Translations under genes and position numbers: made by a program
Source of the DNA: Astropecten irregularis
Lineage: Eukaryota; Echinodermata; Asteroidea; Paxillosida; Astropectinidae
Direction of reading: 5' to 3'
Assembly (NCBI GenBank): GCA_963971285.1
Contig: OZ020244.1
Span: forward strand, 3,100,001 to 3,164,000
DNA length: 64,000 nt
Part shown: piece by piece, positions 6,017 to 51,420 of the stretch
Numbering within the stretch: the first letter of the stretch is position 1
How the letters are laid out: each line of letters starts with the position of its first letter
The notes under the pieces: generated by a model
Told to the model about the DNA's origin: nothing
The model's database searches: none
Seen by the model: only the letters and a program-made list of their open reading frames with translations

Positions 6017-6570
6017 GTGTGTGCACTGGGGTAGCATATCTGAGATTTTCAGTGTTTTTTTTTTTTTACCTACAATGATACACTTCGAATACAGCGGTAG
6101 CCATTTTTCTCGTACATTTAAGTGCATGATGGCTGTCAGTGGAATTCTTTTCCAGTTGTCAGAAGTAGGCCCTAGGCCCTATTTGTTTTTCGATATAAAT
6201 CCAGACAATCATTTTCGGGCTTATATGGATCGTCCACCATCTTGGTTTTGCTCTCCGCCAATTAGAAACAAGCATGAAGTCACGTGTGTGTGGCAGAGAA
6301 CCACACAAGATGACTGACGATCCGAAGAAGTCAGAAACGATGTCTAGATTTCTATCGGAAAACATCGATTTTTATCACATGGAAAGGTCATGAGCACAAA
6401 CAAATAAGAGCTACCGTGCGGTACAATTATTTTTCCGTGTACAAACGTTTAAGTCTATGGGATTCTTTTGATTCGCTAGACCGACCGTCAACCCCATGTA
6501 TTTAAAGTAGGCCTAATTGTATACCTTCGCAAGTAACACTAACAGATTATTTTTATATTGTTCATTTCAG

Positions 6571-6756
6571 CAGTTGGTGCAGTGCACTTATCTCATCCAC
6601 TGACCATCCATTCTTCTTTAATAGAGACACATCTAAAAACACTCATTGATAGAAACGCAGCAAGCCAGCCTGTTCACCAGACCACTAAGCCGACCACCCA
6701 GACAGACGAGAATAACACGAAAATGAGGAATAGTTGCAGTGGCCATACCCTTTCTC
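6571..6756 (+). pseudogene. Exon-like segment with strong splice signals (left copy)
   Basis: It starts after TTGTTCATTTCAG and ends before GTAAGTCATTC, 186 nt, open in the phase-1 frame (peptide includes TKPTTQTDENN). The mirror copy in the right arm has identical splice borders but a TGA in that frame, so protein conservation is not supported. A diverged copy of the acceptor side lies at about 12,855-13,010 within the same arm. Best read as a duplicated exon or exon-like repeat of uncertain coding status. Confidence 0.35.
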
Positions 6757-6837
6757 GTAAGTCATTCTTCTGCAAAAGTGTAAACATTATTGAAATGATA
6801 AATACATGTAAAACAAATGTGAAGAATTAAGAATTTA

Positions 6838-6912
6838 TTGAAGCGGCATTCGAACCACCATCCCGGTACTCTATGCAGTGAGCTATCGAGCCCTATATTG
6901 GCGATGTCCCAA
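6838..6912 (-). repeat. tRNA-like remnant (left arm)
   Basis: On the minus strand there is a degenerate A-box region (CGATAGCTCACTGCATAG) and a B-box-like GTTCGAATGCC. The right arm carries the mirror at 51,056-51,130, where GGTTCGAATCC is intact and is followed by TTTTTAATTGTTCACCTTTC, the tail typical of the tRNA-derived repeats in this window. Confidence 0.55.
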
Positions 6913-7439
6913 ACAGTAACTTATTTTACTCGTTTGATGAGTGACACAGATTTAGTCCATTTTAGTCCAAAAGGTCAGGGGTCTAGCTTTTACGCGTTCA
7001 GGTTTTCCAATTTGATTTTTTTTGGTTTGGATACATCTGGTTGACTCACAAGTACATGTTAATTGATTTGTATTTATCCAGTTCCTGAGACTTTGTAGTT
7101 CAGAGACTATTCACCACATTGAACAATCAATCTGTAACTTGACTGTATTATGGAAAAGTTTGATGGATGTCCTCCACATGCATTCTTCTGTGTCGTTAGC
7201 ATTTATTAGCCTTCATTTTCAGACTCAGTGAGTAAAGCACTGGAATGGCAAACAAGATGTTTTAGGTTCGAGTTCGGGTCTTTATTTGATCTACTTTGAA
7301 CTCAATATGATATTGATTTAAATCAATGCTTTTCTGAAAGTGAAAACTGTAACCAAATCAGAGATGTTTCGATCGACATATGATGTGGTTTGTATCCATT
7401 TTGGTTGTTTTATTGCAGTGATCGGCCCGTACACCGCTA

Positions 7440-8020
7440 CCAGCTATAACTATCTACTCCCTGCTCAACCAGCCAAGAACTATCTACTCCCTGCTCAACC
7501 AGCTAAGAACTATCTACTCCCTGCTCAACCAGCCAAGAACTATCTACTCCCTCCTCAACCAGCCAAGAACTATCTACACCCTCCTCAACCAGCCAAGAAC
7601 TATCTACTCCCTCCTCAGCCAGCAAGAACTATCTACTCCCTTCTCAGCCAGCAAGAACTATCTACTCCCTCCTCAGCCAGCAAGAACTATCTACTCCCTC
7701 CTCAGCCAGCAAGAACTATCTACTCCCTCCTCAACCAGCAAGAACTATCTACTCCCTCCTCAGCCAGCAAGAACTATCTACTCCCTCCTCAGCCAGCAAG
7801 AACTATCTACTCCCTCCTCAGCCAGCAAGAACTATCTACTCCCTCCTCAACCAGCCAAGAACTATCTACTCCCTCCTCAACCAGCCAAGAACTATCTACT
7901 CCCTGCTCAACCAGCCAAGAACTATCTACTCCCTCCTCAACCAGCCAAGAAGTATCAACTCCCTCCTCAACCAGCCAAGAACTATCTACTCCCTCCTCAT
8001 CCAGCCAAGAAACCTTTCAA
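7440..8020 (+). repeat. 29/30-bp minisatellite, ~19 copies (left arm)
   Basis: The unit reads AACTATCTACTCCCTSCTCAACCAGCCAAG. The first six units are 30 bp, a middle block is 29 bp (AGCCAGCAAG instead of AGCCAAG variants), and the last units are again 30 bp. The 30-bp units keep a frame open, producing a proline-rich YLLPAQPAKN-type translation that shifts frame where the unit shortens. An acceptor-like TTTTATTGCAG lies just before the array (7,410-7,420) and a donor-like ACTTGTAAGTTT after it (about 8,166). The right arm has only ~12 copies. I treat the open frame as repeat-generated. Confidence 0.85.
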
Positions 8021-8639
8021 GCTTCCATACTGAGCATCCGTGTGACCAGACATGCAGCTTGCCAGCCTCTACCAGCCGGCTAGCATTGCCAGACAGCCAG
8101 TTAGCTCCCAATCCTGCTTGGTCTACCAGATTGGGTCTGCAACTCTGAATGTCTGGGGGACAGTTACTTGTAAGTTTATTTTCTACTGTTGTACTTGACA
8201 TTGTTCTAGTTTCTTTTGTGGTAGAGCTCTTTACCAAGGCACCCTCTCAAAATGTCTGTCGGTTAAGTCTGGGATAAAAACATTTGAAATACAATTATCG
8301 GATGGAAATGGTGTTGTTAAATGAATGGGCTATTGGAGGAATATTTTGGAGGGGTTTGTTAATTTTGTTAACAGGATTAAACAGTGGGCTGGCTAGGCAG
8401 ACCAGCTGAATTAAAATGTGGCCAGACCAGTACCAAGTACCTGATAGCAGGTGGTACTGATAAGCCATACTGGTTTGCCTTCCTCGAGCAATGTTGGCTG
8501 CACCGTGCAAAATAAAAATGATATTTGGCACATGATTTTTTCCCCCTGTGATACCCGATAAATTATCACAGAAATTCATTGACATATTATAAAAGGTGTA
8601 TCTAGACCCTATTTTATTCATGATTAGTGTGCATTGTTT

Positions 8640-9830
8640 TCTTTTTTATGTGTTTTGAGACGATGATTACCTTTTCGATTAGATGTCTTAATTTCCTACC
8701 TAAAAACTAGTGCTGTGCTTTTTATTCGGATATAGAGTAACCCACACGGATTGAACGTTTCCGTTAACCAATTTTCAAAAACGATTAGCCGAAACCAACA
8801 CCAAAAAAATATGGACTCACCGTAGCTCACGTTTGGTTCATGCTAAAAAAAAAAAACAGTCGTTTATTTTGTCCATTCCGCCAAGTAGAAACACACTGTT
8901 CATATATTTGATCTAAAAAAACATCGTAAAAAGCCTTCCGATCGCGATCGGGATCCCCTTAAAATATTCTGACCGTCCTTCTACCTCCATGTTGAAGATG
9001 TTCCAAAGTAACGTAAGGCTTACGGTCATGACGCGTCAGTTGCATTTTCCTGACCAAATAAATCTTACTTGAATTTCAGTTGGTTACTTTGTCCATATGT
9101 CCAGGTAGAAACACACTTTTACGAACTTAATCTGAAAACATATCGTGCAAAAACCATCCGAAAGCGACGATCACTTTGGAGAAGACGTAAACAGTCAGCA
9201 CGCTGTCTGGAAATTTCCATAACTAGTACCCAAGCCCAACGTAATAGCCACGATAATGAACGTGCACTTAGCGAAAGTATATCAGATCTTACTCCATGTA
9301 GTCTGGAATTATTGCACCCAATTCATGAGCCCAGTACGCTGCTAGCTTCAGTCATGTTGGCCGGAAGCGGTAAGCATAGTCATTGCACAATGTACATGTA
9401 ATTGTGTGCAACGCGGCATCGCATGCACGTGCTCACAGCACAGTGAAGTCAGCACGGCCAGCGCATGTGTAGGCTTCAGTCATGAAGACCGGAAGTGCAG
9501 CGTACGTACATGTACATGGAAATGACTTGTGCTGTCAAGTAGCGCTCTGATCATGGGCGGCGTGGATAACTGTCGGCTTCGGTGCAGATTTTGCGGTAAG
9601 AAATCTGCTTTTAACGTCGCAACCAGCTACAAAATTTGCAGTAATCTGTTTGTTTTGGTCGTCGCGAAAAGTGCAAAAAGTAGCTCGGTTAGCTCATGAG
9701 CTACTCTGATTTTTTGGTATGAAGTTGCGCCACCATAAAAATATCGCGATATTCCCGATATTTCAATTTTTTTTTCGGGGCCCGATATGATTTTTCATAT
9801 GAAAAAAATATCACGATATCGATAAATATC
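8640..9830. repeat. Left-arm-specific insert of dispersed repeat sequence
   Basis: The right arm runs directly between the sequences flanking this interval, leaving about 475 bp where the left has about 1.8 kb. Inside are related fragments at about 8,870-8,960 and 9,060-9,490 (shared GTAGAAACACAC, TTGATCTAAA/TTAATCTGAA, AGTGAAGTCAGCA-type motifs). A third relative lies at 12,480-12,720. The end (9,735-9,835) is rich in ATATCGCGATAT-like palindromes that recur near 12,340-12,420. Confidence 0.6.
9080..9369 (+). CDS. Exon-like open frame, ~96 codons, unknown product
   Basis: Open between a good acceptor (CTTGAATTTCAG) and a good donor (GGAAGCG|GTAAGCAT), 290 nt. The peptide is basic in the first half (KTIRKRRSLWRRRKQ) and serine/leucine-rich in the second. 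No family recognised. It lies in sequence absent from the right arm, and related fragments at about 8,870 and 12,520 are degenerate, so it could be one exon of a repeated element rather than of a host gene. Confidence 0.3.
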
Positions 9831-12240: not shown

Positions 12241-12249
12241 CAAAGCCTG

Positions 12250-14800: not shown

Positions 14801-14805
14801 ATCTA

Positions 14806-17800
14806 ACTTGAGGCTAAAGCTTGGGACTTATTTCGCTACTGCCATGTGAGGCCCACAAAACCAAAAGAAGGGACCTGACCAGATGACAAAGCCGGAGAAA
14901 GGATCCAGCTTTGCCACGTATCTCAAGCCCTTCATTTGGGCTTTGTGGACTGGGCCTTCAAGCATATATCCACCATGACATCTGCTGGACAGCGATCTTT
15001 TTGATTTTACCTGAGGTGGTCCTAGCAGGTGGCTGCGTGGAATGTTCTCTCTCTGGGAGATGATGATCATCGTCTTCTGCTATCATGAGAGCTCAGTCGG
15101 CTCCACATAGCAATTGCTGCTCTCTGAGAGGTACTCCGTCCAAAGAGCGGTGAAATCAGTATTGGTGGATACACTACTGGTCTGTCCGTCTCGATGGCTA
15201 CCACTTGGGGTGTATCAGTTGCGGTTTCGGACTGGTTGACTCAGATGGTAATGGAGGCTGTACCGATTAAGGAGCGTATGATGAGGCTCTGGATTAAACA
15301 CTCTTTGGCTGTTATCTCGGTGGTCTCAATGTATGCTCTGACTGAAGTGAGTTAGTCATCGGACAAGGATATCCTTGTCCGATGACTAACTCTCTTCAGT
15401 CGGAGCATACATACATTCTACACCTAGCTCGAGGCTGTTCTGGATCGGTGTCTTTGCAGAGACACACTCTTGATCATGGGAGACTTCAATGCCTCCACTG
15501 GTGCTGACAGGGTCGAGACAGGTATTGGTCCCCATGGGTCTGGTATCAGGGGTCAGAATGGCACTAGGCTTCTTAATCTTATAAAGTGTCGGGGACCTAG
15601 AGTTACTGGCTCCTGGTATCAGAGTCCGGAGTGGCATCGTTGGACTTGGTATTCCAATACCAGCGTTGTTGCGAAGGAGATCAATCATGTTCTCGAGGAC
15701 AGTCGTTGGAGGATTCTTCAGAACTGCCGGGTTTTTCACAGTGCACAGTTCTCCAACACTGATGACAGTTTGCTTGTTGCAACTCTTCGGGTGCGGCTCA
15801 AGTCCAGGAGGCTAGCTCCATCTAAGCAAAGACGAGCTGTGGCAGATGAGTTTGAGCGCAAGCTTTGTGATCGGCTTTAGGGGAATGCCCACTCTGGAGG
15901 GCCCGGAGGTGATATGGAGTTTCTTTAAGGCTACCACTGTGCAGATTGATGGTGAGAGGCTTGGATCTCTAAAGGTGGCCTGGAGGAGCTTTGTCTCTGA
16001 GGGTACGCTCAGACTGATAGACGAGAGTCGGGATGCTAGACTGAATTGCAAATTAGAGGCGAGGAAGTTGAGGCGCTTGGCCATGCCATCTCTCAGGGCT
16101 GACAAGGAGGCGCATGTTCGGTCTGTGTGTGAGCGGATCAAGAGTCGCCCATGGATGGGGGATTCTTTGGCCACTTACTGGGGGATTCATGCATTGCGTT
16201 CCTCTAAGTTTGTCTCGGGGGTAGGCTCGGTCAGGTCTGCAAGTGGTGAGTTGCTGACGGAGGAGTCTGAGGTGAGGGCTTGTTGGGCATCCTGCTTTGA
16301 GCAGTTGTACCGTGCTGATCCACCGGCTAGCTGCCTGCATATCTCGGAACCACAAGTTGCTGACCCACCAATCAACTGTGATCCACCTACGCTCTTGGAA
16401 ACAAGGGCTGCGGTGAACTGCAGTGAAAAGTGGGAAGGTGGCAGGGATCTGTGATATTCATGCATAATTCTTAAAAGCTAGTGGGGACAGTGCAGTTGAA
16501 GCATTGCATAACATACTAGGTTCGGTATGGACCATTGGCGAGATCCCATCTGGCTGGAAGAGGGGCATTCTAGTTCCTCTCTGTAAGGGCAAGGGAGATC
16601 GCCAGGATTGCAATGCCTATCAAGGTGTGACATTGTTCTTTGTGCCCATCAACGTTCTTGCTAAGATTCTTCTGGCCAGGATTCAACCTCACTTGCTTAA
16701 GCATCAGCGACCTGAGCAGTCTGGGTTCACTCCAAAGAGATCAACAATTGATCGTACTTTGGCCACGCGGGTCCTCTCATAGCGCATGCGTGAGTATCGT
16801 AGTAGGTTCTTTGCAGCCTATATCGATCTCCGCAAGGCGTTTGACTCGGTAGATCGAGGTGCCCTCTTGCGGCTTCTGTATTTCCATGGGGTAACGCAGA
16901 CTCTGATGACTTTACTGTTCAAACTATACTCAGGTACTGAGAGCGTTGTGTGGTGTGAGGGTTCAATCTCCGAGTTCTTCCCAGTTTCGACTGGTGTAGG
17001 ACAAGGAAGGGTTGAGGCTCCAACACTTTTCAACACTTGTATGGACATTGGGCAATAGGGAAGGACAGTGGAGGATTCAGGCTGTGGAGTATCGTTCGCC
17101 GATGTCAGTGTATTAACTGACCTCGACTTTGCCGATGATGCTCTTACCTTTGCGGATACTCTGGAGCTGCTGGTGTGTGCTTTTGAGACAATGTGCTCCG
17201 AGTTGGAACCCCTGGGGCTAAAGGTGTTTTGGGTAAAAACCAAGATACAGGTCTTCAGTGACTCTTTGGGTGGTGCACTTCAGTCAGTTCCCGTATGTGG
17301 TGAGAATGTGGAATTGGTCAATGGGTTCACTTATCTCGGCAGTGATATCTATTTCTTTGCAAGCTGTTATCATGAAGTCAACAAGCGGATTGGTAGGGCT
17401 TGTGGAGCGATGGACTCACTGGAACGGTCTGTATGGCGTTTGCGATATCTATGCAAGAGGACGTAGATTTGGGTCTTCAGGTCCCTGGTCTTGCCTGTCT
17501 TACTCTACGTTTGTAAGACGTGGACCTTGACTGGGGGCCTGGGAAGACGACTCAATGTCTTCTGTACCGGGTCTCTGAGGAGGATCCTTGGGTACCGCAG
17601 GTCGGACCATGTGTCCAACAAGAGGTTACTCAGGGAAAGTCAGATGAGACCCATTACCTGCATGACACGTGAGCGTCAGATGCAACTGTATGGTCATGTG
17701 GCTAGATTCCCTGCAAGCGATCCTGCGGAGGTGAATTCTCTCTATGAGAGAACCTCTTGGTAGGACTTGCCCGGTAGGGCATCTGCATGACACACATATG

Positions 17801-18268: not shown

Positions 18269-18361
18269 GCCATCTTACCATTTGAGGACCTCATCATCAA
18301 TTGTTTCCATGACGATGATTCACCTTCAAGTGACAAGAAGAAGAGCCCCATCATAAAGTAA
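18269..18361 (+). CDS. Small exon-like frame, 30 codons plus stop (left)
   Basis: It follows a strong acceptor (CTGTTTCCACAG) and encodes a peptide beginning AILPFEDLIINC and ending SDKKKSPIIK, then TAA. An alternative reading is an internal exon ending at ATAAA|GTAAATG. The acidic DDD and basic KKK runs and clean opening suggest a real terminal exon. No upstream partner exon was identified and I do not recognise the protein. The right-arm copy is identical, but so is the surrounding intron, so identity alone does not prove constraint. Confidence 0.35.
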   Translation, partial: AILPFEDLIINCFHDDDSPSSDKKKSPIIK

Positions 18362-18774
18362 ATGCTACTTTTATTTGGTTTTTAAACTCATGTGATTGAA
18401 ATCTTAAACAAAACATTACTCACAACCAGCCCAACACTTTCACATTTCCAAAATTTTAATGTTGAAATTGGCATGAAAGCTGCACTGCCATTTTACACTT
18501 TTATCACATAGCAGATCTTTTTGTATGTCCCCAAAAGCAACAGAAAGTCGCATTTCATTTAGAATTCAACAAACCATTAAAATGTGACAAAAACCACAAT
18601 ACTCTGCCCAAAGTGAAGATATTTTGAAAAAATGTTTTGAAAATGGTGTTCAAGCACATGAGGTTAGAACTGTTAGTTTGTTTATTAAGACTAAAATACA
18701 ATAATAACCAATTAGATGTACTGCTTGGTGAATTAAGGAGACAAAATTAGTTCACTCCATTTCCTTCCCTTAGG
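18362..18774. other. Spacer between exon-like frame and satellite
   Basis: About 97% identical by eye to 42,368-42,753, with a short left-only segment near 18,690-18,710. No gene. Confidence 0.5.
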
Positions 18775-20300
18775 TGGGAATGTCAGAAACTTTGTGCATC
18801 TCTTCCCTAAGAGGGAATATCAGAAACTTTGTGCATCTCTTCCCTAAGAGGGAATGTCAGACACTTTGTGCATCTATTCCCTGAAGTGGGAATGTCAGAA
18901 ACTTTGTGCATCTCTTCCCTAAGAGGGAATGTCAGACACTTTGTGCATCTATTCCCTGAAGTGGGAATATCAAAAACTTTGTTCATCTCTTCCCTAAGAG
19001 GGAATGTCAGACACTTAGTGCATCTATTCCCTGAAGTGGGAATATCAAAAACTTTGTTCATCTCTTCCCTAAGAGGGAATGTCAGACACTTAGTGCATCT
19101 ATTCCCTGAAGTGGGAATATCAAAAACTTTGTTCATCTCTTCCCTAAGAGGGAATGTCAGACACTTAGTGCATCTATTCCCTGAAGTGGGAATATCAAAA
19201 ACTTTGTTCATCTCTTCCCTAAGAGGGAATGTCAGACACTTTGTGCATCTATTCCCTGAAGTGGGAATATCAAAAACTTTGTTCATCTCTTCCCTAAGAG
19301 GGAATGTCAGAAACTTTGTGCATCTCTTCCCTAAGAGGGAATATCAGAAACTTTGTGCATCTCTTCCCTAAGAGGGAATGTCAGACACTTTGTGCATCTA
19401 TTCCCTGAAGTGGGAATGTCAGAAACTTTGTGCATCTCTTCCCTAAGAGGGAATGTCAGACACTTTGTGCATCTATTCCCTGAAGTGGGAATATCAAAAA
19501 CTTTGTTCATCTCTCCCCTAAGAGGGAATGTCAGACACTTAGTGCATCTATTCCCTGAAGTGGGAATATCAGAAACTTTGTACATCTCTTCCCTGGAGTG
19601 GGAATGTCAGAAACTTTGTGCATCTCTTCCCTGGAGTGGGAATGTCAGAAACTTTGTGCATCTCTTCCCTGAAGATGAAATATCAGAAACTTTATGCATC
19701 TCTTCCCTAAGAGGGAATGTCAGAAACTTTGTGCATCTATTCCCTAAGAGGGAATGTCAGAAACTTTGTGCATCTCTCTCCTGAAGATGAAATATCAGAA
19801 ACTTTGTGCATCTATTCCCTAAGAGGGAATGTCAGAAACTTTGTGCATCTCTCTCCTGAAGATGAAATATCAGAAACTTTGTGCATCTATTCCCTAAGAG
19901 GGAATATCAGAAACTTTGTGCATCTCTTCCCTGAACATGAAATATCAGAAACTTTGTGCATCTCCTCCCTAGAGTGGGAATGTCAGAAACTTTGTGCATC
20001 TCTTCCCTAGAGTGGGAATGTCAGAAACTTTGTGCATCTCTTCCCTAGAGTGGGAATATCAGAAACTTTGTGCATCTCTTCCCTGGAGTGGGAATGTCAG
20101 AATCTTTGTGCATCTCTTCCCTTAGAGGGAATATCAGAAACTTTGTGCATCTATTCCCTAAGAGGGAATGTCAGAAACTTTGTGCATCTCTTCCCTGAAG
20201 AGGGAATATCAGAAACTTTGTGCATCTATTCCCTAAGAGGGAATGTCAGAAACTTTGTGCATCTATTCCCTGAAGTGGGAATATCAGAAATTTTGTTCAT
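18775..20300. repeat. 37/38-bp satellite, ~40 copies (left arm)
   Basis: The unit is TCAGAAACTTTGTGCATCTC followed by TTCCCTAAGAGGGAATG or a 38-bp variant ending ATTCCCTGAAGTGGGAATG. Each unit contains a near-palindrome (TTCCCTnnnAGGGAA). A higher-order alternation of two unit types (a 75-bp dimer) runs from about 18,835 to 19,310. The later half uses GAAGATGAAATATCAG variants. Long frames open on both strands are by-products of the repeat. Confidence 0.92.
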
Positions 20301-20477
20301 TTGTTTCTTTGAGTGGAAAGGACTCATTTGTCTCTGCAAATTCACCCATTCAGCTTTATTGTTAAATTTTTTTTTTTAGATAAATGTATGGTTCAGGATT
20401 CATTTTAATTTCTTTATTTCATGTTGTTGATGTTGGATAGCTAATTTATAATTTGAACGCACTTTAGAAATGGACCA

Positions 20478-20600
20478 GTGTTTTCCATGGGTTGAAAAAT
20501 ATTTGACCTCATCACTTTGTCCTTGCTAGTGTTTTCCATGGGCTGGAAAATGGGCAACCTCATCACTTAGTCCTTGTAGTGCTTTCCATGGGTTGGCAAA
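20478..20600 (-). repeat. 51-bp minisatellite, ~2-3 copies (left arm)
   Basis: The unit on the minus strand reads AGCAAGGACAAAGTGATGAG GTxxAATxTTTTCCAACCCA TGGAAAACACT. The right arm has expanded the same repeat to about seven units. Confidence 0.8.
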
Positions 20601-21934
20601 CACTCTCGGCACACATGGTTAACTTGGCTTTTTTTAATTGTTTGTCATAGTTTTGTTACCAGATTATGCATTTAATAAGGTCTACATTAATTAATCCTGA
20701 ACCATACCTTAAATTATATGTATATAGTTTTTAAGCAAAGAGCAGAGGATATTTTTATTAACCTGGCGTGCAAAGTAAAAACCACTGGACTCTTGCCAAA
20801 TTCTTCTAATTATCAACTCATCCCAAATTTGCTGGCAAAAGTCAATTGCGCTGCGCTATTCAACCACCACATAATGTCTGCACTGCGCGTATGACACTAC
20901 ACTACTTGATAGTTCCAAACCTGTACAGTATTCTTCATTCATTTACATTTTTATTTTATGATTCCAAATTCCATTAATGCGGCCTGACTGTTTGGATGTG
21001 CGATGATGAAAAGCTAGATTAATTGAAATATCCACTGCTGTTTGATATTATGTAATTTTTGTGTCTGTCCAAATCAGTCTGTAACTTGGCACAATAGGAC
21101 GCGTTTCTTCAAAGTAAAAATGCAGGACATTTAGAATATGCGCGCATCCACCAAAAACAAATGAGACGTTCTTTGCAAAATTCAAAACCTTGAAACTAAA
21201 ATCACATTAGAAAATCTACTTTTTTTGGGGGCATTTGTGTTCAGTACAAATTTAGGATTTTTGGAATACACCAAAACAAAATTAGTGTTTTATTAACAAA
21301 ATTCAATATTTTTAAGAAAATCACATTGGAAATTTTTTGCGCATTTTTGTACAATACAAATTAGGCATTTTTAGAATGTGCGTGTATAAACCAAAACAGA
21401 GCGAGGCGTTGTTTGCAAAAGAATTCTGCGCGTGAATCGCAAAAATGCAAAAAAAATTTCTTTCAGCCAGTTACATGTGTGACTGATTTGGACAGAAAAT
21501 GTAATATTCATTTATGTGTAGTCATTATGAGAATCACTCCATCAAACTAAGTCAAATACTGCATTCTAAAATAAGCAGCGCAGCACAGTACATCTGCACA
21601 GCCTACTCACAAAGATATGAAATAACAAAGGAAAATTGCGTGAAATTTTAAATTGATAAGGACAATTGTGCAGAATTCTCACATTAGATCTCAAAATTCA
21701 AGTTCTTACTCTAAAATTTGAAAATGCATCTTTCATAGACTTTCTTTTTTTCTTTTTTGAAATTCCGTTTCCAATCAATGACAAAGTTCAAACTATATGA
21801 AATTCCTTTTTAGTTTTTTTTTTGGACTCAGAATTAATTCACACTTGGTTTGGCAGAGTGGTTCTCATTTTGAAATGCACTTTACTGAAATGTTTTAATG
21901 TACATGTATCATGAAAAAACAAACAAAAACAAAT

Positions 21935-22210
21935 GCAAACGTGTGCTGCTGGTCGGCGCCCTCTACTGTCTGCAGCATGTAACAGCCAGAAATAACCCAA
22001 GTGTTATGGGTGGTAGGCCCTCTGTTGGATGAAATCTGCTCAGTGTACTACTGTTGTTCTGCATCATCGGTATCTTACCTCGCATGATTTGACAAGCTTA
22101 TTGGCCAAAACTTACGACAACCTCTAAAAGCGCGGTATAGGGAAGAAAGGATTCCTGTTGCTACCTAAAGTCTTTGGGGTCTGTATGGGGTGGGGATAGA
22201 GGGCCGATTC
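21935..22210 (+). repeat. Inverted repeat partner 1, left arm (GTGTGCTGCTGGTCGGCGCC)
   Basis: GCAAACGTGTGCTGCTGGTC GGCGCCCTCTACTGTCTGCA and about 230 bp beyond recur in inverted, diverged form (about 75% by eye) at 26,160-26,435. The pair brackets a 4.5-kb interval, a smaller palindrome nested in the big one. Mirror copies are at 39,100-39,385 and 35,478-35,750. Confidence 0.7.
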
Positions 22211-22819
22211 TTTATTTATCCTTTTGTTGGCACCCGTCATCTTATTAACTTGTTCCTGTGTAAGCAGGTCTCTTTTCAGGCCGGTCATGATGACCAACTA
22301 TTTTCTGCATGCGCAGGACGACTGCTTCTGATCTGAGGGGGTTCGTGACCTGATGGATGATGGTGACCTCTTTCCAGGTGTTGGTGTGAGGATTGGATAA
22401 ATAGCGTTCTTACATGGCTGATTCACTTTGACCTAAAAAGTACTAAGGAACAGGTATTCAGGTTTTACCTTGGTTTCACTTGTGTAGTATGAACTAAATA
22501 CATGCAGTACAGGAAATATCAAAGATGACGTTGGGTTTATGTAGGAAGGGAAGTGGGTCCTTATCTCAAACTCAATGCTTAAGCAAGCTGCTGACAGGTG
22601 GCCTATTCCTTGCTCTGGGTGAGCATTTCTTTACAGTCGGATCCTACATACAATCACTTGTTTAAGGCTGAAATGGCAGATCATTTAACCTCGTGTTGAA
22701 TACACTGCCTGTCTAACATGTTCCACCATGTTCCAACTGGCAGAAAAACAATTTAAATTTTAGCCAGCAATTTTTATGCAAGTTGCATATTTTGCAGAAT
22801 TGGTGTATAACTACTTCAT

Positions 22820-23730
22820 ATAGGAACACAAGGCAGTGTTGCATGTGTGCTATTGCATATTTTGCAGCATTTGGTATTAGGAAATAGGCAGTGTTGCATG
22901 TGTGCTATTGCATATTTTGCAGCATTTGGTATTAGGAACACAAGGCAGTGTTGCATGTGTGCTATTGCATATTTTGCAGCATTTGGTATGAGGAACACAA
23001 GGCAGTGTTGCAGGTGTGCTATTGCATATTTTGCAGCATTTGGTATTAGGAACACAAGGCAGTGTTGCATGTGTGCTATTGCATATTTTGCAGCATTTGG
23101 TATTAGGAACACAAGGCAGTGTTGCAGGTGTGCTATTGCATATTTTGCAGCATTTGGTATTAGGAACACAAGGCAGTGTTGCATGTGTGCTATTGCATAT
23201 TTTGCAGCATTTGGTATTAGGAACACAAGGCAGTGTTGCATGTGTGCTATTGCATATTTTGCAGCATTTGGTATAAAGAACACAAGGCAGTGTTGCATGT
23301 GTGCTATTGCATATTTTGCAGCATTTGGTATTAGGAACACAAGGCAGTGTTGCATGTGTGCTATTGCATATTTTGCAGCATTTGGTATAAGGAACACAAG
23401 GCAGTGTTGCATGTGTGCTATTGCATATTTTGCAGCATTTGGTATTAGGAACACAAAGCAGTGTTGCATGTGTGCTATTGCATACTTATGCAGCATTTGG
23501 TATTAGGAACACAAGGCAGTGTTGCATGTGTGCTATTGCATATTTTGCAGCATTTGGTATTAGGAACACAAGGCAGTGTTGCATGTGTGCTATTGCATAT
23601 TTTGCAGCATTTGGTATGAGGAACACAAGGCAGTGTTGCAGGTATGCTATTGCATATTTTGCAGCACTGGGAACAGAACACAAGGCAGTGTTGCATGTGC
23701 ACTATTCAAGCATATTTTGCAGCATTTCTC
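22820..23730. repeat. 57-bp minisatellite, 16 copies (left arm)
   Basis: The unit is GCAGTGTTGCATGTGTGCTA TTGCATATTTTGCAGCATTT GGTATTAGGAACACAAG. Copies differ by one to three bases (CAGGTGTG, GGTATGAGG, GGTATAAAG variants). Since 57 = 3 x 19, several frames stay open on both strands, giving 19-residue periodic translations. The right arm holds only five copies. Confidence 0.95.
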
Positions 23731-30102: not shown

Positions 30103-30765
30103 TAGGAGTGGCACCCCCTGTCGGAGCCAATGCTGATGTCTACCCGGGGGAACCACTCCTAGATGAAAGCCACTATATAAGACCATTGAATTTACGGTCA
30201 ATTAAGATTATTTGAAGAATAGGAGTGGCACCCCCACATTATGACCGTGAGCTCCATGATCTGGTCAACCCGGGGGAACCACTCCTAGATGAAAGCCAGT
30301 GTATAAGACCATTGAATTAACGGTGAATTAAGATTAATTGTTATAAGAATAGGAGTGGCTCCCCCAACTTGAGACCGTGAGATCCATGGGATAACCGGGG
30401 GAACCACTCCTAGATGAAAGCCAGTATATATAGACCATTGAATTTACGGTCAATTAAGATTAATTATAAGAATAGGAGTGGCTCCCCCCACTTGAGACCG
30501 TGAGATCCATAGGATAACCGGTGGAACCACTCCTAGATGAAAGCCAGTATATAAGACCATTGAATTTACGGTCAATTAAGATTAATTATAAGAATAGGAG
30601 TGGCTCCCCCGTCTTGGGACCGTGAGATCCATGGGCTAACCGGGGGAGCCACTCCTAGATTAAACATTAATCTTAATTGACCGTAAATTCAATGGTCTAT
30701 ATACTGGCTTTCATCTAGGAGTGGTTCCCCGGTAAGCCCATGGATTTCACGGTCTCAAAATGGGG
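30103..30765. repeat. Central array of hairpin-bounded ~120-bp units, left contig end
   Basis: Units start near 30,103, 30,220, 30,350, 30,473 and 30,593. Each unit is a ~65-bp segment bounded by TAGGAGTGGCWCCCCC and GGGGGAACCACTCCTA (about 16-bp inverted repeats), then a ~55-bp spacer (GATGAAAGCCAGTATATAAG ACCATTGAATTTACGGTCAA). At about 30,663 the orientation flips: CTCCTAGATTAAAC runs into ATTAATCTTAATTGACCGTA, the spacer in reverse. About 100 bp of inverted unit then leads to the gap. Confidence 0.9.
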
Positions 30766-30965
30766 NNNNNNNNNNNNNNNNNNNNNNNNNNNNNNNNNNN
30801 NNNNNNNNNNNNNNNNNNNNNNNNNNNNNNNNNNNNNNNNNNNNNNNNNNNNNNNNNNNNNNNNNNNNNNNNNNNNNNNNNNNNNNNNNNNNNNNNNNNN
30901 NNNNNNNNNNNNNNNNNNNNNNNNNNNNNNNNNNNNNNNNNNNNNNNNNNNNNNNNNNNNNNNNN
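30766..30965. other. Assembly gap (200 N)
   Basis: Exactly 200 N, a round number typical of an arbitrary scaffold join rather than a measured distance. It lies inside the central inverted array. Confidence 0.98.
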
Positions 30966-31810
30966 AAGACCATTGAATTAACGGTGAATTAAGATTAATT
31001 GTTTTAAGAATAGGAGTGGCTCCCCAACTTGAGACCGTGAGATCCATGGGATAACCGGGGAACCACTCCTAGATGAAAGCCAGTATATATAGACCATTGA
31101 ATTTACGGTCAATTAAGATTAATTATAAGAATAGGAGTGGCTCCCCCGTCTTGGGACCGTGAGATCCATGGGCTTACCGGGGAGCCACTCCTAGATTAAA
31201 CATTAATCTTAATTGACCGTAAATTCAATGGTCTATATACTGGCTTTCATCTAGGAGTGGTTCCCCGGTAAGCCCATGGATTTCACGGTCTCAAAATGGG
31301 GGAGCCACTCCTATTCTTCACAATTAATCTTAATTGACCGTAAATTCAATGATCTTATATACTGGCTTTCATCTAGGAGTGGTTCCCCGGTTAGCCCATG
31401 GATTTCACGGTCTCAAGACGGGGGAGCCACTCCTATTCTTCACAATTAATCTTAATTGACCGTAAATTTAACGGTCTTATATATACTTAACTTCATCTAG
31501 GAGTGGTTCCCCCGGTTAGCCCATGGATCTCACGGTCTCAAGTGGGGGGAGCCACTCCTATTCTTAAAACAATTAATCTTAATTCACCGTAAATGCAATG
31601 GTCTTATACACTGGCTTTCATCTAGGAGTGGGTCCCCCGGGTTGACCAGATCATGGAGCTCACGGTCAAAATGTGGGGGTGCCACTCCTATTCTTCAAAT
31701 AATCTTAATTGACCGTAAATTCAATGGTCTTATATAGTGGCTTTCATCTAGGAGTGGTTCCCCCGGGTAGACATCAGCATTGGCTCCGACAGGGGGTGCC
31801 ACTCCTATTT
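30966..31810. repeat. Central array, right contig start
   Basis: It begins with about 230 bp in the left-arm orientation, closely matching 30,305-30,660 minus one unit. It flips at about 31,197 with the same CTAGATTAAACATTAATC junction as at 30,663, then continues inverted to the array edge at about 31,810. The ~100 bp after the flip is identical to 30,663-30,765. Confidence 0.9.
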
Positions 31811-38159: not shown

Positions 38160-38480
38160 GAGAAATGCTGCAAAATATGCTTGAATAGCGCACATGCAAC
38201 ACTGCCTTGTGTTCCTAATACCAAATGCTGCAAAATATGCAATAGCACACATGCAACACTGCCTTGTGTTCCTTATACCAAATGCTGCAAAATATGCAAT
38301 AGCACACATGCAACACTGCCTTGTGTTCCTTATACCAAATGCTGCAAAATATGCAATAGCACACATGCAACACTGCCTTGTGTTCCTAATACCAAATGCT
38401 GCAAGGTATGCAATATCACACATGCAACACTGCTTTGTGTTCCTATATGAAGTATTTATACACCAATGCTGCAAAATATG
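38160..38480. repeat. 57-bp minisatellite, 5 copies (right arm)
   Basis: Reverse complement of the left array (TGTTCCTAATACCAAATGCT GCAAAATATGCAATAGCACA). Contraction or expansion relative to 16 copies accounts for about 600 bp of arm length difference. Confidence 0.95.
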
Positions 38481-41269: not shown

Positions 41270-42367
41270 ACTCCAAGAAACAAATGAACAAATTTTCTAA
41301 TATTCCCACTCCAGGGAAGAGATGCACAAAGTTTCTGACATTCCCTCTTCAGGGAAGAGATGGATAAAGTTTCTGATATTCCCTCTTCAGGGAAGAGATG
41401 GATAAAGTTTCTGATATACCTACTCCGCAGAAGAGATGCACACATTTTCTGATATTTCATCTTCAGGGAAGAGATGCACAAAGTTTCTGATATTCCCTCT
41501 TAGGGAAGAGATGCACAAAGTTTCTGACATTCCCACTCCAGGGAAGAGATGCGCAAAGTTTCTGACATTCCCTCTTAGGGAAGAGATGCACAAAGTTTCT
41601 GACATTCCTCTTCAGGGAAGAGATGCACAAAGTTTCTGACATTCCCTCTTCAGGGAAGAGATGCACAAAGTTTCTGATATTCCCACTCCAGGGAAGAGAT
41701 GCACAAAGTTTCTGACATCCCCACTCCTGGGGTCGATTTCACCCAACTCATCGTAATTTACCATCAATCGTAGTATTATAGTGCATTCCTTCGTAACTTG
41801 AGTTACGATCGATCATAGCGCTTTGTGAAATTGACCCCAGGGAATAGATGCAAAAAGTTTCTGATATTCCCTCTTCAGGGGAGAGATGCACAAAGTTTCT
41901 GACATTCCCACTCTAGGGAAGAGATGCACACAGTTTCTGACATTCCCACTCCAGGGAGGAGATGCACAAAGTTTCTGATATTTCATCTTCAGGGAAGAGA
42001 TGCACAAAGTTTCTGATATTCCCTCTTAGGGAAGAGATGCACACATTTTATGATATTTCATCTTCAGGGAAGAGATGCACAAAGTTTTGGACATTCCCTG
42101 TTGGGGAATAGATGCACAAAGTTTTTGACATTCCCTCTTAGGGAATAGATGCACAAAGTTTTTGAAATTCCCTCATAGGGAATAGATGCACAAAGTGTCT
42201 GACATTCCCTCTTAGGGAAGAGATGCACAAAGTTTTAGACATTCCCTCTTAGGGAAGAGATGCACAAGGTTTCTGATATTTCATCTTCAGGAAAGAGATG
42301 CACACATTTTCTGATATTCCCACTCCTGGGAAGAGATGCACAAAGTTTCTGACATTCCCACCTAAGG
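41270..42367. repeat. 37/38-bp satellite, ~26 copies (right arm)
   Basis: Reverse complement of the left array but lacking its long dimer block. Interrupted by a MITE at 41,728-41,839. Unit order differs from the left, showing independent turnover in each arm. Confidence 0.92.
41728..41839. mobile_element. Small MITE (TGGGGTCGATTTCAC family) inside satellite
   Basis: It starts TGGGGTCGATTTCACCCAAC and ends TTTGTGAAATTGACCCCA, so the ends are inverted. The interior has TCGTAATTTACCATCAATCG and GAGTTACGATCGATCATAG. A relative with the same ends is at 58,964-59,116. It splits a satellite unit (CACTCC | AGGGAA context) and is missing from the left arm, so it inserted after the arms formed or diverged. 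Confidence 0.8.
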
Positions 42368-42753
42368 GAAGGAAATGGAGTGAACTCATTTTGTCTCCTT
42401 AATTCACCAAGCAGTACATCTAATGTAATTAACAAACTACCAGTTCTAACCTCATGTGCTTGAACACCATTTTCAAAACATTTTTTCCAGAATGTCTTCA
42501 CTTTGAGCAGAGTATTGTGGTTTTTGTCACATTTTAAAGGTTTGTTGAATTCTAAACGAAATGTGACTTTCTGTTGCTTTTGGAGACATACAAAAAGATC
42601 TGCTATGTGATAAAAGTGTAAAATGGCAGTGCAGCTTTCATGCCAATTTCAACATTAATATTTTGGAAATGTGAAAGTGTTGGGCTGGTTGTGAGTAATG
42701 TTTTGTTTAAGATTTCAATCACATGAGTTTTAAAAACCAAATAAAAGTAGCAT

Positions 42754-43149: not shown

Positions 43150-46100
43150 TGAGGCTTGAGGCTAAGCTTGGGATTTTTTTGCTACCATCATTTTGTGTCC
43201 AATCAATCAACCTTTGAGTGGTACTCCTTTGGTCTTCTGATTGATCCATCCCCGAGGCAACCACACAACGCATCCCCATCTCAGCATAATAACGATCTAT
43301 CTGACGCAACCATATGTGTGTCTTGCAGATGCCCTACCGGGCGAGTCCTACCAAGAGGTTCTCTCATAGAGAGAATTCACCTCCGCAGGATCGCTTGCAG
43401 GGAATCTAGCCACATGACCATACAGTTGCATCTGACGCTCACGTGTCATGCAGGTAATGGGTCTCATCTGACTTTCCCTGAGTAACCTCTTGTTGGACAC
43501 ATGGTCCGACCTGCAGTACCCAAGGATCCTCCTCAGAGACCCAGTACAGAAGACATTGAGTCGTCTTCCCAGGCCCCCAGTCAAGGTCCACGTCTTACAA
43601 ACGTAGAGTAAGACAGGCAAGACCAGGGACCTGAAGACCCAATTCTACGTCCTCTTGCATAGATATCGCAAACGCCATACAGACCGTTCCAGTGAGTCCA
43701 TCGCTCCACAAGCCCTACCAATACGCTTGTTGACTTCATGATAACAGCTTGCAAAGAAATAGATATCACTGCCGAGATAAGTGAACCCATTGACCAATTC
43801 CACATTCTCACCACATACGGGAACTGACTGAAGTGCACCACCCAAAGAGTCACTGAAGACCTGTATCTTGGTTTTTACCCAAAACACCTTTAGCCCCAGG
43901 GGTTCCAACTCGGAGCACATTGTCTCAAAAGCACACACTAGCAGCTCCAGAGTATCCGCAAAGGTAAGAGCATCATCGACAAAGTCAAGGTCAGTTACAC
44001 TGACATCGGCGAACGATACTCCACAGCCTGAATCCTCCACTGTCCTCCCCATTGCCCAATGTCTATACAAGTGTTGAAAAGTGTTGGAGCCTCAACCCTT
44101 CCTTGTCCCACACCAGTCGAAACTGGGAAGAACTCGGAGATTGAACCCCCATACCTCACAACGCTCTCGGTACCTGAGTATAGTTTGAACAGTAGAGTCA
44201 TCAAAGTCTGCGTTACCCCATGGAAATACAGAAGCTGCCAGAGGGCACCTCGATCCACCGAGTCAAACGCCTTGCGGAGATCGATATAGGCTGCAAAGAA
44301 CCTACTACGATACTCACGCATGCGCTATGAGAGGACCCCCGGGGCCAAATTACGATCAATTGTTGATCTCTTTGGAGTGAACCCAGACTGCGCAGGCCGC
44401 TGATGCTTAAGCAAGTGAGGTTGAATCCTGGCCAGAAGAATCTTAGGAAGAATCTTGCTGGGCACAGAGAGCAATGTCACTCCTGGATAGGCATTGTAAT
44501 CCTGGCGATCTCCCTTGCCCTTACAGAGAGGAACTAGAATGCCCCTCTTCCAGTCAGATGGGATCTCGCCAGTGGTCCATACCGAACCTAGTATGTTATG
44601 CAACGCCTCAACTGTACTGTCCCCACCAGCTTTTAAGAATTCTGCGTGAATATCACAGATCCCTGCCACCTTCCCACTTTTCAGGCTGTTCACCGCAGCC
44701 CTCGTTTCCAAGAGCGTAGGTGGATCACAGTCGATTGGTGGGTCAGCAACTTGTGGTTCCGAGATATTCAGGCAGCTAGCCGGTGGATCAGCACGGTACA
44801 ACTGCTCAAAGTAGGATGCCCAACAAGCCCTCACCTCCGACTCCTCCATCAGCAACTCACCGCTTGCAGACCTGACCGAGCCTACCCCGAGACAAACTTA
44901 GAGAACGCAATGCACGAATCCCCCAGTAAGCGGCCAAAGAATCCCCCATCCATGGGTGACTCTTGATCCGCTCACACACAGACCGAACATGTGCCTCCTT
45001 GTCAGTCCTGAGATTTTGCACAGCCAAGCGCCTCAACTTCCTCGCCTCTAGGTTGCCATTAAGTCTAGCCTCCCGACACTTGGCTATCAGTCTTAGCGTA
45101 CCCTCAGAGACAAAGCTCCTCCTGGCCGCTGTTAGAGATCCAAGCCTCTCACCATCAATCGGCACAGTGGTAGCCTTGAAGAAACTCCATATCACCTCCG
45201 GGCCCTCCCAAGTGGGCATTCCCCCAAAGCTGATCACAAAGATTGCGCTCAAACTCATCTGCCACAGCTCCATCCTGAAGACAACTCACATCAAGCCTTT
45301 GCTTAGATGGAGATAGCCTCCTGGACTTGAGCCGCACCCGGAGAGTTGCAACAAGCAATCTGTCATCAGTTTTGGAGAACTGTGCACTCTGAAAAACCTG
45401 GCAGTTCTGAAGAATCCTCCAACCCTCGAGAACATGATCGTTCTCCTTCGCAACAACGCCGGTATTGGAATACCAAGTCCAACGACGCCGCTCCGGATGC
45501 TGATACCAGGAGCCAGTAACTCTAGATCCCCGACCCTTTACAAGATCAAGAAGCCTAGTGCCATTCTGACCCCTGATACCAGACCCATGGGGACCAATAC
45601 ACGTCTCGACCCTGTCAGCACCGGTGGAGGCATTGAAGTCTCCCATGATCAAGAGTGTGTCTCCGCAAAGACACCCATCCAGAACAGACTCGAGCTAGGT
45701 GTAGAATGTATCCTTGTCTGATGGCTATAAACTCACCTCAGTCGGAGCATACATTGAGACCACCAAGATAACACCCAAAGAGTGTTTAATCCAGAGCCTC
45801 ATCATACGCTCCTTGATCGGTACAGCCTCCATTACCATCCGAGTCAGCCAGTCCGAAACCGCAACTGCTACCTCCCCAAGTGGTAGCCATCGAGACGGCC
45901 AGACCAGTACTGTATCTACCAATACTGATTTCACCGCTCTTTGGACAGAGTACCTCTCAGAGAGCAGCAATTGCTATGTGGAGCCGACTGAGCTCTCATG
46001 ATGGCAGAAGATAATGATCATCATCTCCCAGAGAGAGAACATTCCACGCAGCCACCTGCTAGGACCGCCTCAGGTAAAATTGAGAAGATCACTGTCCAGC

Positions 46101-46535: not shown

Positions 46536-46584
46536 GTCTTCTGATGGCCATCCCCAAGGGAGCCACACTCTCAACGAAATAATG

Positions 46585-47293: not shown

Positions 47294-47309
47294 TGTAAAG
47301 GCCCCTAAT

Positions 47310-47720: not shown

Positions 47721-47954
47721 AGCCTAACAAGTTAATTAGGTCGTTGTTAGACTTTCGTTATGACATGAGGGCTGTTCCGTAAGTTTTCCTTGTGAGTTAC
47801 GAAACTGCTAAGTTAATGATTGGTCTGAAGTTCTTATTAGGCTATCATTAGATAAAGCAAACAAGTTTCTACTGCTTTGTCAATGCTGTATACGAGGACA
47901 TCCAACTCCTCTTTAGTGAAGTGAGGCTTCCTATTAATTTGAATCTGAAAAGAA

Positions 47955-48449: not shown

Positions 48450-48479
48450 GAAAGAACAAACATATAAAAATAACACCAT

Positions 48480-49360
48480 GTCATTCAAGTTTCATTCAAG
48501 TAGGAGCAAAATGTTGACACCATCCATAGATTTAAATAAAAAACTAGAGTGTGCGCTTCGTATTCATTGTGCGTGCTCTTGGCACTCCTGCAAGAACGCG
48601 CAGCCGCCATTTTAGTTGGGGTGAGTGAGCAGCAGAGTAGACTCCAAATACCCGGATGAAACTCAACTGCGCGCACTTTGGGGCCATCCATAAAGTACGT
48701 ACGCACAAAGGGGGGGAGGGGGGGTTGTAACCGATGCGTACGCCATGCGTACAGGGGGAGGGGGGTTCAGGACAATGCGTACCGTACGCAAACGAAAAAT
48801 GTGCATAGCATTATCGCGCGAAAAGAGATAAAAACGTGAAAAAAGCACCAGGATTGTTTTGTTTTTTCCTTTTTTTTCTTATTCAACATGATAAAAAATA
48901 GTAAAATCCATCTGTAAATGTATAAAAACCTGTTAAACTTTAGCCATTCGTTTCAAAATTTGAAAGTGACGTCCCAATAACGGTACCGGCTCGGATTACG
49001 GTGACATTTTAATGATGCTAAAGCAAGGGACCACGAGAAGTGAAAAACCTAATGTGGAATGCGTATGCGTACAGGGGAGGAGGGGGGGTTGGGACCACTG
49101 CGTACGCCATGCGTACAGAGGGGGAGGTAAAAAAAGTCGGCATTTCGTGCGTAATGTACTTTATGGACGGCCCCTTTGCATGACGCAACGGCAGACGCAA
49201 TGTGTGGAACCATCCCGCCTGGGTTAATTCACCGTTGGCTGCCTGCGCGTACGAACCAGGATACAAATGTACACACAATTTGAAATGGGATGCGCAAATT
49301 TTTCTTAGGAAATGGCGCCAGTCATAGTCGAATGTATCATGCGCAGAGTGCACACTCTAA
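48480..49360. repeat. Right-arm-specific insertion region
   Basis: The left arm has about 60 bp between the sequences flanking this interval (10,170-10,232). The insert carries the TIR element at 48,680-49,174 plus about 200 bp on each side (GCGTGCTCTTGGCACTC; TTCACCGTTGGCTGCCTGCG). Confidence 0.6.
48680..49174. mobile_element. TIR element with G-rich subterminal tracts
   Basis: The left end is GGGGCCATCCATAAAGTACG TACGCA and the right end is its complement (TGCGTAATGTACTTTATGGA CGGCCCC). Just inside each end lie GTACGC repeats and G tracts (AAGGGGGGGAGGGGGGGTTG at 48,708; GGGGAGGAGGGGGGGTTG at 49,074). The middle (48,790-49,010) is AT-rich with no frame. A candidate 3-4-bp target duplication is TTT(G). 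Ends of this kind (GGGGCCGTCCATAAA) recur in many invertebrates as non-autonomous DNA elements, from memory. Confidence 0.8.
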
Positions 49361-50229
49361 TTTTTTATTTAACTCTATGACACCATCATATATCAAATTT
49401 GCATCAGGACTGAGTCCACTGATCAAAGTCTCTAATTCAAACCAGCAAACCCCCAACAATAGTAGAATGCCGCTGAATACCAACATTTTGTGATATTTAT
49501 GGTAGGAAATTTAGACAGTTGATCAAACAATTTAGTGGATTGCACAAGAATGTGATAGAAATAAATGTCTTTTGGGATATATTATGGACCCACCTTATCA
49601 TGTTTATTACTAACTTCACTCAGTTCTTACAGGGGCAGGACTAGTTTTTCTTGGGCACCTTGCCCGATACGACTACGACCAGAAACGACGACTAGAAAAA
49701 TGTGTGGGCATCGGTTGAAAATGATTTTTGTATCGGCAAACTGGTTTGGCTTATCGGTACCACCTGCTATCAGATATTGCTGGTCTAGCCACATTGGAAT
49801 TTAGCAGATCTGCCTGGCCATTCAACTGTCTAATCCTGTTAACAGAATAAATCTACTCCAGCCCTACAGAACATTCCTCCAATAACCCATCTGATGCACA
49901 GCGTGAAAAGTTATCAGACCAATTCCGTCCGATAATTGCATATCGGATGTTTTTATCCAAGACTTAACCGACAGGAATTCTGAGAGGGTGCCTTGGTAAA
50001 GAGTTCTACTATGAGAGAAACTAGAACGATGTCAACTATAACAGTAGAAAATGGAACTTACAAGTAGCTCTCCTCCCAGACATTCATAGTTGCAGACCCA
50101 ATCAGGTAGGCAAGCAGGATTGGGAGCTGACTGGCTGTCTGGCAATGCTACATGTAGCTGGCTGGTAGAGGCTGGCAAGCAACTTTGCTGCATGACTGGT
50201 CACATGGATGCTTGGCTGAGAAGCTTGAA

Positions 50230-50580
50230 AGGTTTCTTGGCTGGTCGAGAAGAAAGTAAATAGTTCTTGGCTGGTTAAGCAGGGAGTAGATAGTTCTTGG
50301 CTGGTTGAGGAGGGAGTAGATAGTTCTTGGCTGGTTGAGGAGGGAGCAGATAGTTCTTGGCTGGTTGAGGGGGAGTAGATAGTTCTGGGCTGGTTGAGGA
50401 GGCAGTAGATAGTTCTTGGCTGGTTGAGGAGGGAGAAGATAGTTCTTGGCTGGTTGAGAAGAGAGTAGATAGTTCTTGGCTGGTTGAGGAGGGAGTAGAT
50501 AGTTCTTGGCTGGTTGAGGAGGGAGTTGATAGTTCTTGGCTGGTTGAGCAGGGAGTAGATAGTTACTGGTACATGCTGGT
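50230..50580 (-). repeat. 29/30-bp minisatellite, ~12 copies (right arm)
   Basis: Mirror of 7,440-8,020 on the minus strand. Units vary by one or two bases (one reads GTTCTGGGCTGG), and frame changes relative to the left copy argue against a conserved protein. Confidence 0.85.
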
Positions 50581-51055
50581 AGCAGTAGTGTACGGGTAGA
50601 TCACTGCAATAAAACGACCAAAAGGGATACAAATCACATCATTTGAAGATTGAAACAGCTCTGATTTGGTACTTACAGTCGTCTTCATCAAAAAGCATTG
50701 CTTTAAATCCAAATCAAATTGGGTTCAAAGAAGATGAAATAAAGAACCGACTTGAGTAGAACTTTAACCTAAAACATCTTGTTTGCCATACTAACTCAGA
50801 AGAATGATTATGACTTCAGAATGGCAGACATCAGAATTTTTCCATTATACAGTTGAAGGTGGACAGGAATGTTCAATGTGGTGAATAGTCTCTGAACTAC
50901 AAAGTCTCAGGAACTGGATGAATCCAAATCAATGAACAAGTGAGTCAACTTGTGAGAAAACTAGATCCTTGACAAACATGTAGTTATGGACAAAATTTGA
51001 CTAAATCTGTGTCATTCATCAAACGAGCCAAAAATATGTCACTGTTTGGGACACT

Positions 51056-51140
51056 GCCAATATAGAGAGCGATAGCTCCTTTCGTAGAGCACCGGGGGTT
51101 GCAGGTTCGAATCCTGCTCCAATACATTTTTAATTGTTCA
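51056..51140 (+). repeat. tRNA-like repeat remnant (right arm)
   Basis: AGCGATAGCTCC and GGTTCGAATCCTGCTCCA give recognisable A-box and B-box regions, followed by TTTTTAATTGTTCACC. Acceptor and D-arm pairing are poor, so this is a decayed tRNA-derived repeat. It mirrors 6,838-6,912. Confidence 0.6.
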
Positions 51141-51197
51141 CCTTTCAATCATTTATCATGTCAATAATGTTTACACTTTTGCAGAAGAATGACTTAC

Positions 51198-51377
51198 GAG
51201 AGAGGGTATGGCCACTGCAACTGTTCTTCATTTCCATGTTATTCTCGTCTGTCTGGCTGGTCGGCTCAGCGGTCTGGTAAACAGATTGGCTAGCTGAGTT
51301 TCTATCAACGTGTTTTCAGATGTATCTCTCAGATGAATGGACGGTCAGTGGATGAAATAAGTGCACTGCATCAACTG
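51198..51377 (-). pseudogene. Exon-like segment with strong splice signals (right copy)
   Basis: Mirror of 6,571-6,756, 180 nt. The acceptor (GTTCATTTCAG) and donor (CTC|GTAAGTCATTC) are preserved on the minus strand. The frame open in the left copy hits a TGA about 60 nt in. Confidence 0.35.
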
Positions 51378-51420
51378 CTGAAATGAACATTACCAAAAAA
51401 AATGTGTTACTTGGAAAAGG

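Follow-up and report, generated by a model that had tools for sequence, protein, structure and literature searches.

Mirror Arms of the Palindrome

The window, that is the whole stretch of DNA analyzed here, comprises 64,000 nucleotides of the sea star Astropecten irregularis (GenBank assembly GCA_963971285.1, contig OZ020244.1, termed C1, positions 3100001–3164000) and includes an imperfect palindrome of ~45 kb which probably is a genuine chromosomal palindrome belonging to a family. The window was compared with its own reverse strand by BLASTN, a check akin to the self dot-plot proposed in an earlier note made from the letters alone, and the identity of the arms was determined from a separate global alignment of the two. 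BLASTN recovered a chain of opposite-strand matches in which positions 6540–30765 (~24 kb) pair with positions 51409–30966 (~20 kb); the chain spans 6540/51409 to 30765/31144 and includes one member piece at 20477–23098. Identity was 95.7% at the center (7388 columns) and 93.5% in the middle (3917 columns), most pieces at the edge showing ~83–86%, and the sums of mirror coordinates shifted from 57,949 at the edge to 61,909 at the center. The global alignment of the left and right arms yielded 94.4% identity over 18,459 aligned sites, and each of 20 shuffles of the right contig in 10-mer blocks produced zero aligned bases. The results bear out the mirrored order, the arm lengths of ~24 and ~20 kb, and the drift of coordinate sums from ~61,900 at the center to ~58,000 at the edges that the earlier note had described.

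The left arm, to the extent that it can be aligned with its counterpart, occupies positions 6540–30664 (+), as judged by opposite-strand BLASTN, global alignment and relatives in the same assembly, and its mirror, the right arm, occupies positions 31201–51409 (−) by BLASTN and global alignment. Inverted adjacent arms of >10 kb with a short spacer are present in the window, where they lie across a gap, and in a gap-free relative at 1.00 Mb on C1. Identity of >99% along the arm, as in primate palindromes, was not found in either case (94.4% overall in the window and 96.5% at 1.00 Mb). In three relatives of the palindrome, at 0.88, 1.00 and 1.16 Mb, homology continues for at least ~0.9 kb beyond the point that corresponds to 6540/51409. 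Thus, positions 6540 and 51409 are limits of alignment of the window arms and not the ends of an element, and the limits of 6515 and 51420 at which the palindrome had been said to end are not sustained.

The Center of the Palindrome

The palindrome is interrupted at its center by a scaffold gap of exactly 200 N (30766–30965), the sole run of N in the window, and the two arms therefore are located on different contigs. The mirror structure that the earlier note described as a ~45-kb stretch stands, but the note had overlooked the gap and had not recognized that the palindrome has relatives at several loci. Both contigs terminate within a tandem array of 122-bp units, each beyond the point at which the orientation of the array switches: repeat analysis placed orientation A at the end of the left arm (30144–30664, +) and orientation B at the start of the right arm (31179–31770, −). 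The switch constitutes a fold-back junction at 30610–30705 (+) in the left contig with a 32-bp outer and a 17-bp inner stem when folded, and alignment located the same junction in the same orientation at 31147–31241 (+) in the right contig, where it is preceded by 235 bases of orientation A. The left contig end (30432–30765, +) and the right contig start (30967–31301, +) overlap on the same strand by 334 bases with 96.2% identity, the last ~120 bases being without mismatch. The left contig end scored 535 bits against the right contig of the window versus ≤384 bits (same strand) and ≤462 bits (opposite strand) against seven other contig starts that carry right arms. The junction is asymmetric and has a single direction in the two contigs. 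Together with the overlap and the best-scoring contig match, this is not the arrangement expected of two haplotypes joined tail to tail.

The center comprises an inverted repeat of ~17 bp with a loop of ~31 nt, formed from the facing ends of neighboring 122-bp units and nested inside the 32-bp outer arms, for which the predicted fold is −57.8 kcal/mol compared to a mean of −16.5 for shuffled sequence. The center thus has the short, spacer-interrupted inverted repeat expected of a fold-back inverted duplication. The junction was aligned at eight of nine loci on C1 (11 rows) but not at 0.88 Mb, where the contig begins too late to show it. Two junction types that differ by 7 bp match the two C1 clades of the arm tree.

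Related Palindromes on Two Scaffolds

Relatives were sought in the assembly from which the window is derived (475.7 Mb, 168 contigs) using arm segment 24000–25500 as query. As the best 40 of 881 candidates were scored, copy counts are lower bounds. At least 19 near-full-length copies were located, 14 on C1 (0.89–3.48 Mb) and five on scaffold C18 (17.9–19.6 Mb), and among these best 40 candidates the two scaffolds were the only ones with such copies. The terminal 300 bases of C18 are TTAGGG-rich, unlike the initial 300 of C1. Twelve of the 19 copies form six inverted pairs, 11–15 kb apart, which include the pair in the window. A 200-N gap is present at or near the center in four of the other five pairs, but not in the pair at 1.00 Mb (C1:983300–1025300), which comprises 42,001 bases with 0 N and possesses arms of at least 21 kb that are 96.5% identical over 18,530 aligned sites. 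Assembled sequence thus crosses the center unbroken at 1.00 Mb, and contig ends overlap at two of the five gapped pairs, namely the window and the 1.99-Mb palindrome at which the end and start of the contigs share 653 bases on the same strand with 99.85% identity. Across 47 loci (275,028 bases, partly overlapping), nine distinct N runs were detected, all of which are ≤~1 kb from a palindrome center. An outer 102-bp anchor recurs at eight of nine C1 loci.

Half-copies also were noted. The four on C1 (0.88, 1.76, 2.37 and 3.47 Mb) each lack the left arm and start at a 200-N gap; purging, collapse or genuine loss may account for the missing arms. On C18, two half-copies have no gap and retain 0.6–1 kb of the left arm. 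A small separate inverted repeat (C1:3467504–3468976; 682 columns, 87.7%) is situated directly left of the gap at 3.47 Mb, and a repeat of ~370 bp at C1:983419–983792 occurs on many scaffolds among the best 40 of 11,744 candidates. The published assembly was produced from HiFi reads with hifiasm, purge_dups and YaHS and contains 786 gaps, and no sex chromosome is named in the available part of that report (PMC11480709). Elsewhere in the assembly, a mitochondrial contig reads TGA, AGA, AAA and ATA according to mitochondrial code 9 at conserved COX1 sites, C131:32162–33484 contains a bacterial-type COX1 without TGA, possibly denoting a bacterial contig, and C25:9951047–9952018 contains a COX1 copy with seven TGA that may be a nuclear mitochondrial copy.

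Divergence Within and Between Palindromes

Inner arms were compared over the ~6 kb adjoining the center. Divergence between the two arms of a palindrome was 2.01% in the window, 0.81% at 2.21 Mb, 1.35% at 1.99 Mb, 2.35% at 1.00 Mb and 2.78% at 18.26 Mb on C18. The inner arms of different palindromes are 3.7–15.7% apart, with the lone arm at 2.37 Mb versus the window as the sole exception. Overall, inner arms are ~97–99% alike and outer arms 81–96%. When the window was compared with the 1.00-Mb palindrome up to 16 kb from the center, 1019 sites united the arms of one palindrome against the other palindrome, and 12 and 7 sites were arm-specific; the count was limited to 0–16 kb as bins at greater distance (694, 4 and 9 sites) aligned poorly and were left out. 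The arms thus are more alike than their age predicts, as in concerted evolution, with the exceptions of the 2.37-Mb arm and of a group at 0.88, 1.00 and 1.16 Mb in which the nearest arms in the tree come from different palindromes.

Divergence between the arms climbs with distance from the center in both palindromes: rho is 0.74 for the window, or 0.60 when limited to 16 kb, and 0.79 for the 1.00-Mb palindrome. Circular shifts did not reach the observed values in any of 29, 25 and 33 cases, respectively. In contrast, divergence between the window and 1.00-Mb palindromes falls with distance (rho −0.52), and the gradient therefore is not explained by mutation rate or constraint. Judged from these alignments, gene conversion from arm to arm that is strongest near the center would be the best explanation of the gradient.

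Features Within the Arms and in the Flanks

Tandem arrays are paired in the two arms, but with unequal copy numbers. A 30-bp array of 19.1 copies (7448–8011, +) is mirrored at 50234–50564 with 11.1 copies, a 38/75-bp array (18764–20300, +) at 41284–42371, and a 57-bp array of 15.9 copies (22821–23727, +) at 38163–38445 with 4.9 copies. Broken LINE-like (long interspersed nuclear element) sequences also occur in both arms. The reverse transcriptase in the left arm (15428–17463, +) matched Pfam RVT_1 below the cut-off only, and the right arm copy (43648–45694, −) was recognized by its BLASTN mirror, a Pfam match likewise below the cut-off, and protein relatives. The best 120 of 254 protein matches to the right-arm copy had E-values down to 1.5e-91, some with PF00078, and nearly all of these relatives were on short contigs. 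An exon-like block at 18269–18357 (+), in which 29 open codons flanked by AG and GT were read directly from the sequence and for which a database match was not obtained, sits within a segment that is conserved in the 1.00-Mb palindrome. The block suggests a candidate gene in the arms. A scan for spliced coding blocks yielded mostly LINE, tandem-array and repeat pieces.

Pfam was scanned with 112 of the 299 open reading frames (ORFs) of at least 55 residues in the window. Single ORFs matched Death (1.4e-7), DUF3645 (7.2e-6) and Cryptochrome_C (0.0072), and no transposase match was found among the ORFs scanned. The Death-domain ORF, whose score is above the Pfam cut-off, is in the right flank beyond the arms (59208–59435, −). 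Mutually related tRNA-derived repeats, probably short interspersed nuclear elements, are located at 3979–4156, 55636–55905 and 60030–60344, two of which read as tRNA-Thr. The right flank also includes 15-bp (56186–56471) and 60-bp (61658–61952) tandem arrays without a mirror partner in the window.

Proposed Origin and Maintenance of the Palindrome

The palindrome in the window probably exists as such in the chromosome and belongs to a family that arose by an old fold-back duplication, was copied to multiple loci, and undergoes arm-to-arm conversion that is strongest near the center. That it is real and kept by conversion was one of two explanations offered in the earlier note, and is supported by the gap-free relative, the contig overlap, the common junction and the likeness within palindromes. 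A fold-back origin is proposed; the center resembles that left in yeast by fold-back priming near a break, as described in the portion of that study available (PMC10622511). In the first step, a break beside the ~17-bp inverted repeat of facing 122-bp unit ends would have permitted the strand to bend back on itself and act as primer for its own copying, with an inverted duplication as the result. The palindrome then may have spread, as an intact unit, by copying to several sites within ~2.6 Mb of C1, the order of this step relative to the first being a proposal. Finally, the arms would exchange sequence by conversion, most often near the center, with the outer arms drifting apart.

Several observations weigh against this interpretation. 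The center of the window palindrome is an assembly gap, and a clean overlap of contig ends was not seen at 2.21 or 1.16 Mb, the C18 pair being complex. The related copies near the end of C18 have a different center, as neither the 122-bp unit nor the junction was detected at the four C18 loci examined. Counts of AT-to-GC versus GC-to-AT changes were 69:58 in both arms and 57:66 in one arm, and GC bias among shared changes was not significant (Fisher p 0.25). In the tree, exact sister arms are recovered in only three of six pairs (2.21 Mb, 1.99 Mb and C18 18.26 Mb), the arms at 1.00 and 1.16 Mb pair across palindromes, and the window arms form one clade with the 2.37-Mb arm. The non-sister arms could reflect recent copying of whole palindromes, exchange between palindromes, or leftover haplotypic duplicates. 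Lastly, the inner 6 kb of the 2.37-Mb arm diverges by 2.10 and 1.85% from the two window arms, compared to 2.01% between the latter, and at 16–20 kb from the center it is 3.5–3.7% from the left arm and 10–15% from the right arm, the left and right arms being 13–19% apart.

At 10–12 kb the relationship is the reverse, with the 2.37-Mb arm 8.6% from the left and 2.6% from the right arm of the window; the arm is a mosaic. The junction at 2.37 Mb runs in the opposite direction, and when reversed the order of left-type arm, junction and missing arm is as in the window. Because the junction there runs the other way round, we read the locus as a probable inverted copy of the window palindrome, one arm of which is absent from the assembly. 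Alternatively, the outer likeness of the 2.37-Mb arm to the left arm could signify that the scaffolder mis-paired contigs at the gap and joined arms of two different family members in the window. This explanation is unlikely, but has points in its favor: the 200-N gap at the center, the outer region (14–20 kb) in which the left arm is closer to the 2.37-Mb arm than to the right arm, and a tree in which the right arm groups with that at 2.37 Mb (support 87/88). Nevertheless, the contig ends in the window overlap best with each other, the nearness to the right arm at 10–12 kb is contrary to mis-pairing, and an inverted copy at 2.37 Mb accounts for both junction direction and arm order.

Repeated recent formation at a common fold-back hotspot, in which case the arms would be alike through youth instead of conversion, is less readily reconciled with the data and is judged improbable. 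The central short inverted repeat could be reused and there are two junction types that differ by 7 bp, but within each type loci differ by 3.7–14% or ~6% whereas arms differ by 0.8–2.4%. Moreover, repeated formation predicts evenly alike arms, yet divergence climbs with distance.

The other explanation in the earlier note, that two diverged haplotypes of one locus were joined tail to tail by the scaffolder, is very improbable and was rejected. The gap is central, the assembly was scaffolded with Hi-C data and 87 haplotypic duplications were removed in curation, as noted in the accessible part of its description (PMC11480709), and false palindromes can arise by scaffolding according to part of another report (PMC7953838). 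Against this, a palindrome of the same family at 1.00 Mb is gap-free, both contigs cross the center with the junction in one orientation, the outer arms are up to 13–19% apart, and the gradient of divergence is centered on the junction. A giant transposon with very long terminal inverted repeats, to which the recurrent 102-bp anchor might point, can be dismissed almost entirely as homology passes that anchor at 0.88, 1.00 and 1.16 Mb so that fixed outer ends are lacking, near-full-length copies are confined to two scaffolds among the candidates scored, and the LINE-like remnant is the sole mobile-element protein recognized in the arms.

Comparison with Known Palindromes

The comparisons here draw on partial texts of the reports cited. 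Palindromes on the primate X and Y chromosomes similarly possess long inverted arms that are kept alike by gene conversion (PMC8981503; PMC3723533). Those on the X chromosome have a median arm length of 37 kb and arms that are ~99.95% alike through arm-to-arm conversion (PMC8981503). In contrast to these sex chromosome examples, inner arms in Astropecten are 97–99% and outer arms 81–96% alike, and the assembly names no sex chromosome. Inverted gene pairs in Caenorhabditis resemble the present case in that the structure is older than the copies, likeness is greater within than between pairs and is concentrated near the center, and pairs were duplicated as a unit. However, the Caenorhabditis examples comprise intergenic arms of 124–160 bp plus genes and were compared between species, whereas the arms here are at least 20 kb and were compared between loci of one genome (PMC1803023).

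Inverted collinear blocks on one scaffold also occur without named sex chromosomes in Folsomia candida and Adineta vaga. These species are parthenogens, and the Folsomia authors, in the text available, saw no concerted evolution, unlike that observed here (PMC5490193; PMC7953838). Some such palindromes may be scaffolding errors (PMC7953838). In yeast, where short inverted repeats have been documented as sites of fold-back priming, the centers consist of 11 bp with a 6-bp spacer or 5 bp with a 35-bp spacer compared to ~17 bp with ~31 nt in Astropecten. The yeast events were new and followed an induced break in cells, whereas the event proposed here is an old one deduced from the junction (PMC10622511).

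Significance

Long palindromes that undergo gene conversion are of a kind already known, and the window palindrome is a further case. The literature searched (one library) yielded no account of long palindromes from an echinoderm. It is conceivable, albeit doubtful, that the end regions of C1 and C18 are sites at which palindromes multiply as whole units and convert from the center outward on chromosomes that lack a sex-chromosome designation or, more boldly, that they represent an unrecognized sex-linked or recombination-poor region in which palindromes have a role like that on mammalian sex chromosomes. For curators, the placement of 200-N gaps of a HiFi/Hi-C assembly on palindrome centers, with overlapping ends at two of the five gapped pairs, could be of practical use. 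Mammalian sex chromosomes provide the best-known cases of long palindromes whose arms stay alike through conversion. A family with a common junction would permit an old fold-back and repeated conversion to be separated within one genome, and the graded divergence may provide a readout of how conversion falls off with distance from the palindrome center.

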